DNA from: Pseudidiomarina insulisalsae
Lineage (GTDB): Bacteria > Pseudomonadota > Gammaproteobacteria > Enterobacterales > Alteromonadaceae
Direction: 5' to 3'
NCBI RefSeq assembly: GCF_003987065.1
Contig: NZ_PIPY01000003.1
Span: forward strand, 62,001 to 126,000
Length of the DNA: 64,000 nt
This document shows, one piece after another, positions 19,781 through 62,055 of this stretch (position 1 is the first letter of the stretch; every line of letters starts with the position of its first letter). The notes under the pieces are model-generated. The model made no database searches, was not told where the DNA came from, and worked only from the letters and a program-made list of their open reading frames with translations. Position numbers and translations under genes: made by a program.

Positions 19781-19811
19781 GCGTAGCCCGTAGTAGAACT
19801 ACGGGCTACGC
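19781..19811. repeat. REP-like palindrome, copy 1 (lpxC/dciA junction)
   Basis: Arms GCGTAGCCCGTAG and CTACGGGCTACGC (13 bp, perfect) flank a 5-base TAGAA centre. Both ends carry the GTAG head seen in the other copies. It lies between two convergent genes and could act as a bidirectional terminator or mRNA 3' stabiliser, though neither side has a T-run. The dciA stop codon (19806-19808) lies within the right arm. Confidence 0.9.
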
Positions 19812-33192: not shown

Positions 33193-33260
33193 TTATTGGA
33201 TATTAGTTATTGGATATTAGTGAATTCACCCAATAACCAATATCCAGTATCAAATAACGC
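33193..33260. repeat. A/T-rich GATATT palindrome, copy 1
   Basis: A 14-bp unit GTTATTGGATATTA is present twice in tandem, and the region folds as a long hairpin: GGATATTAGTTATTGG pairs with CCAATAACCAATATCC with one mismatch, around GTGAATTCACC-like loop bases. It lies in the pdhR leader, between the PdhR box and the start codon. A related element precedes the M13 peptidase gene (40572-40628); both end in ATATC/GTATC followed by AAATAACG. Confidence 0.75.
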
Positions 33261-33279
33261 CTTAAGGTTTTCAAAAACG

Positions 33280-36735: not shown

Positions 36736-38559
36736 ATGGCAGATTTAAAAGAAGTACACGCCCCCGATGTCGGCGGCGAAGAAGTTGAAGTCATCGAGGT
36801 TCTGGTCAGCAAAGGCGACAGCGTCGAAGCTGAAGACGGCCTGATCACCGTTGAGAGCGACAAAGCCTCAATGGACATCCCGGCACCGTTCGCCGGCAAA
36901 GTCGACGAAATCAAAGTCAGCGTCGGTGACAAGATCTCCGAAGGCGACCTCATCGCCATGCTGGCCGCCGCTGACGAAGGCTCAGACGACGAAGACGAAG
37001 ACTCGGGCGACGACGATTCGGACAATGGCGGTGACGGGGACGACGTAGCCCGTAGTTCTACTACGGGTGAAACCTCCGACAAAGAAGATGCCGGTGACGA
37101 AGAAGAACCCACCGACAAAGACGAAGACAAAGACAAAGATGACTCGGGCGAAACCGAAGTCATCGAAGTCAAAGTCCCCGACATCGGCGGCGACACCGAC
37201 GTTGAAGTCATCGAAGTTCTCGTCTCCGAAGGCGACAGCATTGAAAAAGAAGATGGCCTGATCACCCTCGAAACCGACAAAGCCACCATGGACGTGCCAA
37301 GCCCTGAAGCCGGCACCGTCAAGTCCGTGGAAGTCAACACCGGTGACAAAGTCAGCGAAGGCTCGCTGGTCATCACCCTGGAAGTAGCCCGTAGCTCTAC
37401 TACGGGTAAAAAGTCGGAAGAAGAAGACGAGGGTGAATCAAAATCTTCGTCGGCCGAATCAAAATCTTCGTCGGCTGACGCCGATGCATCTTCTGGCGAA
37501 GATGCAGAGGGGGCAGCCCCGTCCGGGTCAGCCCCTTCAGACGAAGAGGAAGGTCGTGTCACCGCATCCGGTGAGCGCAAAGCCCCACCCGTACCTGATC
37601 ACCCACTCGACAAAAAGGGTAAAGCCGAAGGCCTTGCCTACGCATCGCCGGCAGTACGCCGTCTGGCGCGCGAGTTTGGTGTGAACCTGAACGAGGTGAA
37701 AGGCAGCGGTCGCAAGGAACGTATCCTCAAAGAAGACGTGCAGGAATACGTGAAATACGAACTGTCACGCCCGAAAGCAACAGCTTCGGCGGGTACCTCG
37801 AAAGGCTCCGGTGGCTTACAAGTCATCGCGCCACCGAAAGTCGACTTCAGCAAGTTCGGTGAAATTGAAGAAGTGCCATTAACCCGTATTCAGAAAATTT
37901 CGGGACCGAACCTGCACCGCAACTGGGTGACCATTCCACACGTTACGCAGTTTGACGAAGCCGATATTACCGAGCTCGAGAACTTCCGTAAGCAAGAGAA
38001 CGAGCTGCAGGCCAAGAAGAAAGACGGCGTGAAGATCACCCCGTTGGTATTCATCATGAAAGCGGTCGCCAAAGCGCTGCAGGAGTATCCGGTCTTTAAC
38101 TCCTCACTGGCAGAAGACGGCGAGCACCTGATCATGAAGAAATACATTCATATCGGTATTGCGGTGGATACTCCGGGAGGCCTGGTCGTACCGGTCATTC
38201 GTGACGTCGACAAAAAAGGTATCTACCAGCTGTCTGAAGAACTGATGGATGTCAGCAGCCGCGCGCGTGACGGCAAGCTGAAGTCGCAGGACATGCAGGG
38301 CGGTTGTTTCTCAATCTCAAGCCTGGGTGGCATTGGCGGTACGGCGTTTACGCCTATCGTGAACGCCCCGGACGTCGCTATTCTGGGCGTTTCGAAGAGC
38401 GAAATGAAGCCTAAATGGAACGGTGACGAGTTTGAGCCACGCCTGATGTTGCCAACCAGCCTGTCATACGACCATCGTGTGATTGACGGCGCGGTTGCCG
38501 CACGTTTTAGTGTGTATCTGTGCAATGTCCTGTCGGATATCAGAAAACTCATCCTATAA
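36736..38559 (+). CDS. aceF: Pyruvate dehydrogenase E2 (dihydrolipoamide acetyltransferase) AceF with repeat-derived linkers
   Basis: 607 residues. Two lipoyl domains: residues 1-76 (lipoylated Lys43 in ESDKASMD) and about 140-215 (Lys182 in ETDKATMD); a peripheral-subunit-binding domain with [16 protein letters not shown]; and the acetyltransferase core with HRVIDG (His580, Asp584). E. coli has three lipoyl domains, this protein two. The linkers are long and strongly acidic or Ser-rich. Two REP palindromes lie in frame, each read as VARSSTTG (residues 104-111 and 217-224), one directly after each lipoyl domain or its acidic linker; a 21-bp tandem duplication gives ESKSSSA twice; and a G/C-rich palindrome gives EGAAPSG at 258-264. 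Reading frame is intact, so the protein is probably functional. Confidence 0.97.
37045..37067 (+). repeat. REP-like palindrome, copy 2, inside aceF
   Basis: 23 bp: GTAGC head, then CCGTAG/CTACGG arms around TTCTA. Starts on a codon boundary and encodes V-A-R-S-S-T-T-G with the next base. Lies in the linker after lipoyl domain 1. Confidence 0.95.
37384..37406 (+). repeat. REP-like palindrome, copy 3, inside aceF
   Basis: Differs from copy 2 by one base (T to C in the centre: CTCTA). Same strand and same reading frame, again encoding V-A-R-S-S-T-T-G, in the linker after lipoyl domain 2. Confidence 0.95.
37435..37476 (+). repeat. 21-bp tandem duplication in the aceF linker
   Basis: Two adjacent 21-bp units (37435-37455 and 37456-37476) differ only at the last base and encode ESKSSSA twice. 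In-frame growth of a flexible linker. Confidence 0.9.
37504..37526 (+). repeat. G/C-rich palindrome inside aceF
   Basis: Core GGGGC-A-GCCCC with partly paired flanks (CAGAG before, GTCCGG after), resembling the element at 57637-57663. Encodes EGAAPSG; the intergenic copy at 57.6 kb would also read EGAAPSG in one frame. Confidence 0.65.
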
Positions 38560-38648: not shown

Positions 38649-40076
38649 ATGAGCAAAGAAATTAATGCCCAAGTGGTCGTACTCGGTTCAGGCCCTGGGG
38701 GTTATTCAGCAGCCTTCCGTGCTGCCGATTTAGGTTTAGATACCGTACTTGTTGAGCGTTACAGCACGCTAGGTGGTGTATGTCTGAACGTTGGCTGTAT
38801 TCCGTCAAAAGCATTGCTGCACCTTGCCAAGCACATTGAAGACGCTAAGCACATGGCGGCAGAAGGCATCGAATTCGGCGAGCCAAAAATTGATCTCGAC
38901 AAAATTCGTGAGCACAAAGAAAAAGTCGTTGGCCAGCTGACCGGCGGTCTGGGTCAAATGTCGAAAATGCGTAAGGTGAAAGTGGTCACCGGTAACGGTG
39001 AATTCGCCAGCGACAAGAAAATGAAAGTGACCGACAACGACGGCAACGAAACCATCGTGAACTTTGAGCACGCGATTATCGCTGCTGGCTCGCAGTCGAT
39101 CAAACTACCTTTTGTACCTCATGACGACGAGCGTATCTGGGACTCAACCGACGCCCTTGAACTGCGCTTTGTACCTGATCGCATGTTGATTTTGGGTGGC
39201 GGTATTATCGGTCTGGAAATGGGCTGTGTCTACGCGGCACTGGGTTCAACCATCGACGTGGTTGAAATGACCGATCAGCTGATTCCACCTGCTGACAAAG
39301 ACATCATTAAGCCGTTCACTAAGAGCATGAAGAAGAAGTTCGATAACATCATGCTGAACACCAAAGCGGCGAAAGTGGAAGCCAAGAAAGACGGCATTCA
39401 CGTGACCTTTGAAGGTGAAAACGCACCTGAGAAGCCGGTCAAGTATGACGCTGTACTGGTTGCTGTTGGCCGTTCGCCAAACGGTGACAAAGTAGGTGCA
39501 GATAAAGCCGGTGTTGAAGTTACCGACCGTGGTTTCATTAACGTCGACAAGCAAATGCGCACCAATGTGAAAAACATCTTCGCCATCGGTGACCTGGTTG
39601 GCCAACCAATGCTGGCTCACAAAGCCGTGCACGAAGGTCACGTTGCTGCTGAAGTTATCTCTGGTATGAAGCACTACTTCGACCCGAAAGTGATTCCTTC
39701 AATTGCGTACACTGATCCAGAAGTTGCATGGACCGGTCTGACCGAGAAAGAAGCGAAAGCGCAAGGCATCGAATACGAAACAGCGGTATTCCCATGGTCA
39801 GCATCTGGCCGTGCCATTGCACAGGGTTCGACCGACGGCATGACCAAGCTGTTGTTTGACAAAAACGAGCGCATTATTGGTGCTGCAACCGTAGGTTCAA
39901 ACGCCGGCGAATTGATGGGTGAACTGTGTCTTGCTATCGAAATGGGCTGTGATGCAGAAGACATCGCGCTGACCATTCACGCACACCCAACGCTGCACGA
40001 ATCAGTTGGCCTGGCCGCGGAAGTGTTTGAAGGCTCGATTACCGACCTGCCAAACAAGAAAGCGAAGAAGAAGTAA
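38649..40076 (+). CDS. lpdA: Dihydrolipoyl dehydrogenase (E3)
   Basis: 475 residues, FAD flavoenzyme that reoxidises dihydrolipoamide in pyruvate dehydrogenase, 2-oxoglutarate dehydrogenase and glycine cleavage. FAD-binding VVVLGSGPGGYSAAFRAADLG, redox disulfide Cys45/Cys50 in GGVCLNVGCIPSKALL, NAD-binding LILGGGIIGLEMG, FAIGDLVGQPMLAHKA, and the dimer-interface HAHPTLHES catalytic His. Follows aceF with its own candidate promoter. The TAA stop is part of a REP-like repeat, replacing the usual GTAG head with GTAA. Confidence 0.97.
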   Translation: MSKEINAQVVVLGSGPGGYSAAFRAADLGLDTVLVERYSTLGGVCLNVGCIPSKALLHLAKHIEDAKHMAAEGIEFGEPKIDLDKIREHKEKVVGQLTGGLGQMSKMRKVKVVTGNGEFASDKKMKVTDNDGNETIVNFEHAIIAAGSQSIKLPFVPHDDERIWDSTDALELRFVPDRMLILGGGIIGLEMGCVYAALGSTIDVVEMTDQLIPPADKDIIKPFTKSMKKKFDNIMLNTKAAKVEAKKDGIHVTFEGENAPEKPVKYDAVLVAVGRSPNGDKVGADKAGVEVTDRGFINVDKQMRTNVKNIFAIGDLVGQPMLAHKAVHEGHVAAEVISGMKHYFDPKVIPSIAYTDPEVAWTGLTEKEAKAQGIEYETAVFPWSASGRAIAQGSTDGMTKLLFDKNERIIGAATVGSNAGELMGELCLAIEMGCDAEDIALTIHAHPTLHESVGLAAEVFEGSITDLPNKKAKKK

Positions 40077-40095
40077 CCCGTAGTTCTACTACGGG
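40073..40095 (+). repeat. REP-like palindrome, copy 4 (end of lpdA)
   Basis: Same 23-bp element with head GTAAC instead of GTAGC, then CCGTAG/CTACGG arms around TTCTA. Its second to fourth bases are the TAA stop of lpdA. Confidence 0.93.
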
Positions 40096-40571: not shown

Positions 40572-40628
40572 CGTTATTTGATATTTGATATTGGTTATCC
40601 AGTAACTAATAACCGATATCAAATAACG
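40572..40628. repeat. A/T-rich GATATT palindrome, copy 2
   Basis: CGTTATT at the left pairs with AATAACG at the right, and TGATATTGGTTAT pairs with ATAACCGATATCA across a CCAGTAACTA loop; TGATATT is tandemly repeated on the left arm. Related to 33193-33260. Lies just before the M13 peptidase gene. Confidence 0.75.
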
Positions 40629-40654
40629 TCTTTGCATTATTGAATGAGGAAGTT

Positions 40655-61974: not shown

Positions 61975-61981
61975 ATATACG

Positions 61982-61996
61982 TAGTTCTACTACGGG
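61982..61996 (+). repeat. REP-like palindrome, copy 5, right part
   Basis: TAGTTCTACTACGGG, continuing GTAGCCCG at 60578-60585. See the IS entry. Confidence 0.85.
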
Positions 61997-62032: not shown

Positions 62033-62055
62033 CCCGCAGTAGAACTGCGGGCTAC
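62033..62055 (-). repeat. REP-like palindrome, copy 6 (inverted, before argR end)
   Basis: On the minus strand GTAGC head then CCGCAG/CTGCGG arms around TTCTA: compensatory T-to-C and A-to-G changes keep the stem. With copy 5 it forms an inverted pair, like the BIME arrangement of REP elements. Confidence 0.9.

Follow-up and report, generated by a model that had tools for sequence, protein, structure and literature searches.

In-frame GTAG-type REP palindromes in linkers and loops of conserved Pseudidiomarina proteins

The gene aceF of Pseudidiomarina insulisalsae contains two in-frame copies of a 23-bp palindrome which belong to a new family of the known superfamily of GTAG-type REPs, and members of this family reside inside six further genes of the genus. 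Very probably, REPs or inverted REP pairs (REPINs) mobilised by a RAYT transposase were inserted in frame, survived in tolerant linkers and loops, and then lost halves and decayed. The analysis followed an initial annotation of a window, a stretch of 64,000 nucleotides, in which REP palindromes translated within aceF had been described. This observation was confirmed and is larger than first described; the interpretation given with it was partly supported.

The two aceF copies, GTAGCCCGTAG(T/C)TCTACTACGGG, are situated on the coding strand in frame 0 (Table 1). Copy 1, GTAGCCCGTAGTTCTACTACGGG, and copy 2, GTAGCCCGTAGCTCTACTACGGG, differ in a single base, T/C at base 12, and both read VARSSTTG; positions, strand and difference were borne out. 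The REP core was present at six places of the window, with 0.04 pattern hits expected from dinucleotide shuffles; ten pattern hits with up to three mismatches were obtained for the six places because a palindrome matches on both strands. The four places outside aceF are non-coding or gene-end sites, as annotated. The lipoyl repeats of aceF are 417 bp apart and the REPs 339 bp, thus the REPs are not one unit duplicated together with a lipoyl domain. Pfam recognised two Biotin_lipoyl stretches, E3_binding and the acyltransferase domain 2-oxoacid_dh in the ORF. An AlphaFold model, with a mean pLDDT of only 57.6 and a poor catalytic half, had pLDDT values below 50 at residues 82-137 and 222-261. 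Copy 1 (residues 104-111) falls into the former stretch of the model, so its linker is presumably disordered, and copy 2 (residues 217-224) is predicted to begin on the last lipoyl strand (E211-218) and to continue into the linker. The downstream ORF is taken to be lpd from its sequence. An AT-rich repeat, ATAACCAATATCCAGTATCAAATAACG, occurs in inverted and direct copies before aceE (33230-33263) and after lpd (40572-40632) and is perhaps another small repeat family.

Table 1. Features in the window, with positions counted from its first nucleotide
Feature	Position	Strand	Basis
aceF, dihydrolipoamide acetyltransferase (E2) of pyruvate dehydrogenase, two lipoyl domains, 607 aa	36736..38559	+	ORF, Pfam
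REP copy 1, TAG stem, VARSSTTG, linker after lipoyl domain 1	37045..37067	+	sequence; pLDDT<50
REP copy 2, one loop base changed, VARSSTTG, starts at end of lipoyl domain 2	37384..37406	+	
Second, unrelated in-frame palindrome TGCATCTTC-TGGC-GAAGATGCA (ASSGEDA), linker 2 of aceF	37485..37506	+	
lpd (presumed), dihydrolipoamide dehydrogenase; TAA stop shared with the following REP	38649..40076	+	ORF
REP with GTAA head, source of the lpd TAA stop	40073..40095	+	
REP, GTAG being the source of the TAG stop of a 153-aa ORF (L122) on the - strand	19787..19809	-	
Left REP of an inverted pair, altered left end	61978..61996	+	
Right REP of an inverted pair, CAG stem	62033..62055	-	

The assignment to the GTAG superfamily is based on the GTAG at one end (GTAGCCCG...), its first four bases being unpaired in the fold, and on a stem of 8 bp with a 3-base loop, in aceF copy 2 of 7 bp with 5 bases. 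These values are within the limits of the superfamily, stems of 5-13 bp and loops of 2-20 bases (PMC3733652, Table 1). The computed folds had energies of -10 to -15 kcal/mol. As had been proposed, the elements are dispersed REPs: in the P. insulisalsae genome (2.56 Mb, G000) 23 sites were obtained with a relaxed pattern and three with the reversed control pattern. Three stem types, TAG, CAG and TGG, each self-complementary, were present, and relatives add TAC and GGC. For the relatives we use genome labels with presumptive names: G002 (P. aquimaris), G003 (P. atlantica), G004 (P. donghaiensis), G008 (P. homiensis), G016 (P. sediminum), G021 (strain CB1) and G024 (P. terrestris). Dispersed exact-pattern sites numbered 151 in G008, 154 in G021, 52 in G002, 36 in G015 and 45 in a fifth relative. 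The TAG pattern matched in 10 of 26 genomes of the genus, G000 included, and some others have the GGC stem type. Among the matches listed, the REPs of relatives were often arranged as +/- inverted pairs. Two inverted REPs with a spacer and outward GTAG heads, i.e., REPINs, were found in the window (61978/62033), in HscA and in yjbH; each of the two aceF copies is a single REP, and both point the same way.

One hundred ninety-nine sites were classified, from the own genome with up to two mismatches and from fetched stretches of G007, G002 and G008 with up to one. The G008 part comprised 14 stretches with 65 sites at up to one mismatch, compared to its 151 exact-pattern sites genome-wide; 4 of the 52 listed exact sites of G002 were outside the classified stretches, and G021 and G015 were counted and left out. 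A codon score, for which long ORFs had served as training set, decided on coding status, with Pfam backing for one representative per named gene. 135 sites were intergenic or other, 26 at gene ends, 3 in C-termini, 25 internal and 10 near ORF starts. This count, suggested with the first description, revealed that 24 of the 25 internal copies are in sense orientation and frame 0; the sole antisense copy, in yjbH, is the partner within a complete inverted pair. Sense orientation and frame 0 also applied to all three C-terminal copies. All 26 gene-end copies were in sense orientation and gave the stop codon; in 23 the TAG is that of the GTAG head and in 3 it belongs to the stem, and at lpd the head holds a TAA. 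A third own ORF with a REP stop (L122) was found by eye, below the script threshold. Near ORF starts 3 copies were sense and 7 antisense, a doubtful class; ORF extensions over these REPs (RuvB, GspI/GspJ, others) were left out of consideration, being probably untranslated or due to alternative starts. The adjacent pseudopilin genes T2SSI and T2SSJ of G002 (L199:1601-2056 and L199:897-1601, both on the - strand) have a REP pair directly before each prepilin motif, and the GTG in an antisense TGG repeat could be their start codon, giving a short leader.

The frame is largely imposed by the repeat itself. TAG and TAC stems have frame 0 as the only open sense frame, with the peptide VARxSxxG, and a stop inside the repeat in the other sense frames; CAG, TGG and GGC stems are open in sense frame 2 as well. 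Antisense, two frames are open in all five stem types, used among the 25 internal copies by the yjbH partner alone. The near-uniformity of frame and peptide is explained by the single open sense frame of TAG and TAC stems together with the sense orientation. Copies at gene ends have this orientation too, with the GTAG head towards the gene upstream. Internal copies were present in seven genes (Pfam): the E2-type genes aceF, bkdB and sucB as well as der, hscA, yjbH and rodZ; the labels bkdB, sucB, hscA and der are presumptive, given from domains and sequence. The E2s, three of the seven occupied genes, hold 15 of the 24 sense internal copies (2 in the own genome, 4 in G007, 4 in G002 and 5 in G008). 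This concentration is striking and not easily explained by pure tolerance; the economical reading combines tolerance with exchange between linkers, and targeting of E2 linkers beyond tolerance is not claimed.

Comparison of orthologues presented occupied, empty and decayed sites. REP-type hairpins on the coding strand were found in 8 of 80 aceF loci, all eight among the 18 Pseudidiomarina-type loci and in the same frame, with five copies in P. homiensis and three in CB1. In BkdB, 5 of 25 loci had at least one intact copy, all three linkers were filled in G002, G008 and G021, and linker 3 carried decayed copies in G003 and G007. SucB had a REP in 2 of 25 loci (G008, G021) and a relic in G007. 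The Der linker was occupied in 6 of 24 readable loci (the anchor was missing in 1 of 25) and the HscA loop in 9 of 22 (anchor missing in 2 of 24), plus one decayed copy. The annotation had regarded disordered E2 linkers as tolerant landing sites. This holds for the recurrently occupied E2 linkers, but these are not the only sites: the HscA copies reside in a loop matching DnaK ITADATGPKHMN, which we place in the nucleotide-binding domain. In E2s, Der and RodZ the sites are often between Pfam domains. The Der copies separate its two GTPase domains, a position taken up by an acidic linker in 3j8g, the solved Der that matched best. Stem types at the same site varied among species: Der has CAG in G000, G002 and G007 and TAG in G008 and G021, and HscA has TAG in G000 and G008 and CAG in G002 and G021.

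Linker lengths would support insertion in the main for HscA, inconsistently for Der and not for BkdB linker 3, where no length signal was present. The HscA loop has 35-39 residues with one copy and 27-34 in most loci without, except for 39 in G024 and 51 in G005. The Der linker measures 48-53 residues with a copy, and without one 41-51 in some loci and 62-69 in others; in G025 it has 92 with a copy, compared to 92-93 in relatives without. A clean insertion of 23-24 bp, anticipated by the annotation, was not found: neither an exact empty site nor a target duplication was recovered in the linkers compared, which are too diverged, and lengths were suggestive in HscA only. Whole pairs inside genes span about 100-240 bp. 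HscA of G004, G012, G017 and G025 carries a whole GGC-type inverted pair in frame (VARRSTPG ... RRxTPGY), with repeated units between the halves in G004 and G025; G022 has the left half only, followed by sequence resembling G012. In yjbH a whole pair is present in G002, a decayed right half in G007 and the left half only in the own genome. These whole and half pairs fit an insertion of REPINs that later lost one half, an origin which PMC3116915, in its parts on single REPs, proposes for sites outside genes.

Synonymous positions separate the repeat from its host gene. Inside the three bkdB repeats, 1/21, 2/21 and 1/20 four-fold sites differed in three species pairs, and outside the repeats 51/220, 100/218 and 90/231, respectively, the G008-G002 pair accounting for 2/21 and 100/218. 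For der of G000 and G002 the values were 0/7 inside and 123/233 outside. Contrary pairs were der of G021-G007 and G008-G007 (3/6 inside each) and hscA of G000-G002 and G000-G021 (2/6 each), with mostly paired stem changes and changes of the last base. The in-repeat counts are small and the species pairs not independent. The coding REP DNA is probably young, converted or constrained, judged from these substitutions. The hscA genes of G008 and G021 (L293/L292) differ at 10/334 four-fold sites outside the repeat and have 18, 15, 3 and 5 differences in four neighbouring 60-column bins round the loop (about 240 columns); the loop was placed by arithmetic, and other dense bins are at or beyond the gene ends. 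This patch looks like a local replacement by recombination.

A candidate mobiliser is encoded in the genus. Y1-transposase matches were obtained in 19 of 26 genomes, including the own, and in seven (G004, G007, G008, G015, G021, G022, G025) one match is within about 2 kb of der. All four loci opened (G004, G007, G008, G021) have a RAYT between der and a gene that we take to be Hsp33-like, with REPs on both sides, an association typical of the GTAG superfamily. The flanking repeats are of the GGC type in G004 and of TAG, CAG, TGG or TAC types in the other three. The own genome has at this locus two REPs (C13:186799, 187540) and, beside the second, a transposase remnant that corresponds to roughly the C-terminal 80 residues of the 184-residue G007 transposase; the G004 query matched with residues 107-184 at 62 % identity (C13:187255-187488). 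A longer tblastn match (residues 69-183) runs across a stop codon and a REP, and the remnant is certain for roughly the final 80 residues only. The HxH motif, which G007 has at residues 59-61, is missing from the remnant. As no more than this C-terminal part of the cognate RAYT is left, the family has probably ceased to move in P. insulisalsae, and its copies there are probably fossils. The 228-aa Y1 transposase of the own genome (L100/L336) was rejected as driver, having no REP within 8 kb and 22-27 % identity to the REP-flanked RAYTs. In G008 (L333:2651-3310, PRSRTAGY) and G021 (L334:2610-3269, PRSKTAGY) the RAYT ORF runs upstream through a REP, so its own repeat may provide the start of the transposase gene or control it.

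Two other palindromes were observed in E2 linkers. The aceF stretch at window positions 37440-37565, consisting of TGCATCTTC..GAAGATGCA plus GGGTCAGACC-type sequence and encoding the ASSGEDA type, matched in 6 of 26 genomes (G002, G003, G007, G013, G024 and the own), by coordinates inside aceF in each of the five genomes examined for this (all but G013), with up to three matches per genome; these palindromes are apparently confined to the linkers of one gene. A search for GTCAGANCCAGC-NNNN-GCTGGNTCTGAC in the 26 genomes with up to two mismatches was made for a second dispersed REP family. In that form this candidate was dismissed, since GTCAGANCCAGC..GCTGGNTCTGAC had two places each in G004, G019 and G025 and none in the other 23 genomes. 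By coordinates (L320-L325), one place is bkdB in all three and the other aceF in G004, presumably also in G019 and G025, as if the palindrome had been exchanged between E2 linkers.

Palindromes might arise by chance from the composition of linkers rich in Ser, Asp and Glu. The ASSGEDA type is indeed built of Ser and acidic codons, and aceF genes of other genera exceed shuffles in hairpins (33 in 62 genes, with 20.6 expected for all 81), several of them at one conserved coding motif. For the REPs this origin is refuted and has hardly any probability left, as the six core sites far exceed the expectation for the window, and 11 of 19 Pseudidiomarina-type aceF genes hold 36 hairpins of at least 8 bp (about 16 of them REPs), compared to 4.0, as the sum of means, in 20 synonymous shuffles of each of these 11 genes. 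Selection on the protein, with VARSSTTG a useful linker peptide and the palindrome incidental, would agree with the recurrence of the same peptide in unrelated proteins, at orthologous places and in several species. It is largely refuted and very improbable: four-fold sites mostly match inside the repeat and the rest of the gene has diverged (39-62 % differ elsewhere in distant pairs), thus the peptide is not the conserved thing; the same hairpin is dispersed between genes; and the peptide varies with the stem type, base pairing being kept. In the linkers read, those without an intact or decayed hairpin also lacked the peptide, and VARSSTTG in other codons, sought as a counter-example, did not occur.

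A third alternative is a role of the hairpin in the mRNA. It could slow ribosomes at domain boundaries or protect the aceEF-lpd transcript, and in E. coli REPs close to stop codons influence translation. The frequent position between Pfam domains, the hairpin stabilities and the paired changes of stems seen at orthologous sites would be in line with such a role, and perfect hairpins persist in the own genome despite the broken transposase, as would likewise be expected if the hairpin were under constraint. We nevertheless consider it unlikely, as the same linkers lack a hairpin in many relatives, copies have decayed in BkdB, SucB and HscA, orthologues without hairpin are open frames without stops, and REP sets vary by species. 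Quite unlikely, too, is a domestication of the hairpins as a pause for folding or lipoylation at the boundaries of E2s and multi-domain proteins, by which the stem changes would be compensatory and not due to conversion.

Intragenic GTAG REPs, the tolerance of linkers and the supply of TAG stops were already known in 2013. Di Nocera et al. (PMC3733652) described, in the sections concerned, GTAG REPs with RAYTs, TAG stops from the head and intragenic copies in several species, proposed flexible linkers and loops as neutral sites, and reported different REPs at about the same recB site in two Xanthomonas species. Coding palindromes, described in the annotation as best known from Rickettsia, are hence not a speciality of that genus; intragenic repeats of the CGTC group in R. 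conorii correspond there to RPE-4 and RPE-6. The Pseudidiomarina family resembles the GTAG superfamily as presented in these sections in the head outside the stem, the short stem-loop, inverted dimers, the RAYT between repeats, the head TAG as stop codon and the copies within genes. Replication and repair genes are stressed there as targets, whereas here three E2s, Der, HscA, YjbH and RodZ are affected, and a genus-wide comparison, synonymous divergence and half-loss are added to that account. Idiomarina has no occurrence in the main text of PMC3733652, the family is therefore apparently undescribed. RPEs (Ogata et al., PMC2229807) are likewise palindromic repeats in frame within genes of conserved proteins, and a guanylate kinase with such an insert was active with a changed substrate affinity; in the pertinent part of that paper they are given as 105-146 bp long, with no transposase named, in contrast to the 23-bp, GTAG-headed and RAYT-associated element, a comparison of size and not of sequences. 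In P. fluorescens (Bertels and Rainey 2011, PMC3116915), according to its REPIN sections, the inverted pair is also the presumed mobile unit and single REPs are taken as defunct remnants. Those REPINs are extragenic, whereas in Pseudidiomarina pairs and remnants were traced inside coding sequence. Among the titles and abstracts listed for REPs with Idiomarina, Pseudidiomarina or lipoyl linkers, mostly from the open literature, none reported such a family or a concentration in E2s. New are this REP family, its concentration in E2s and the shared loops.

In the preferred account of in-frame insertion and decay, the RAYT encoded beside der would move GTAG-type REPs or inverted pairs, and an insertion inside a gene would survive only in frame and within a linker or loop. 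The second half of an inserted pair would usually be lost afterwards, if the direction of change is read correctly; recombination between copies, presumably as gene conversion, would swap stem types locally, and the copies would decay. The REP-derived residues are probably translated, with a presumably near-neutral effect on the host, and mobilisation of this family by the RAYT is likely. The genus thus offers a natural series, seen gene by gene and species by species, of insertion, frame filtering, half-loss, stem switching and decay, and with it a route by which a transposase-linked DNA hairpin becomes part of housekeeping proteins. The in-frame linker insertions in E2, Der and HscA are material for testing linker tolerance and the effects of in-frame hairpins.
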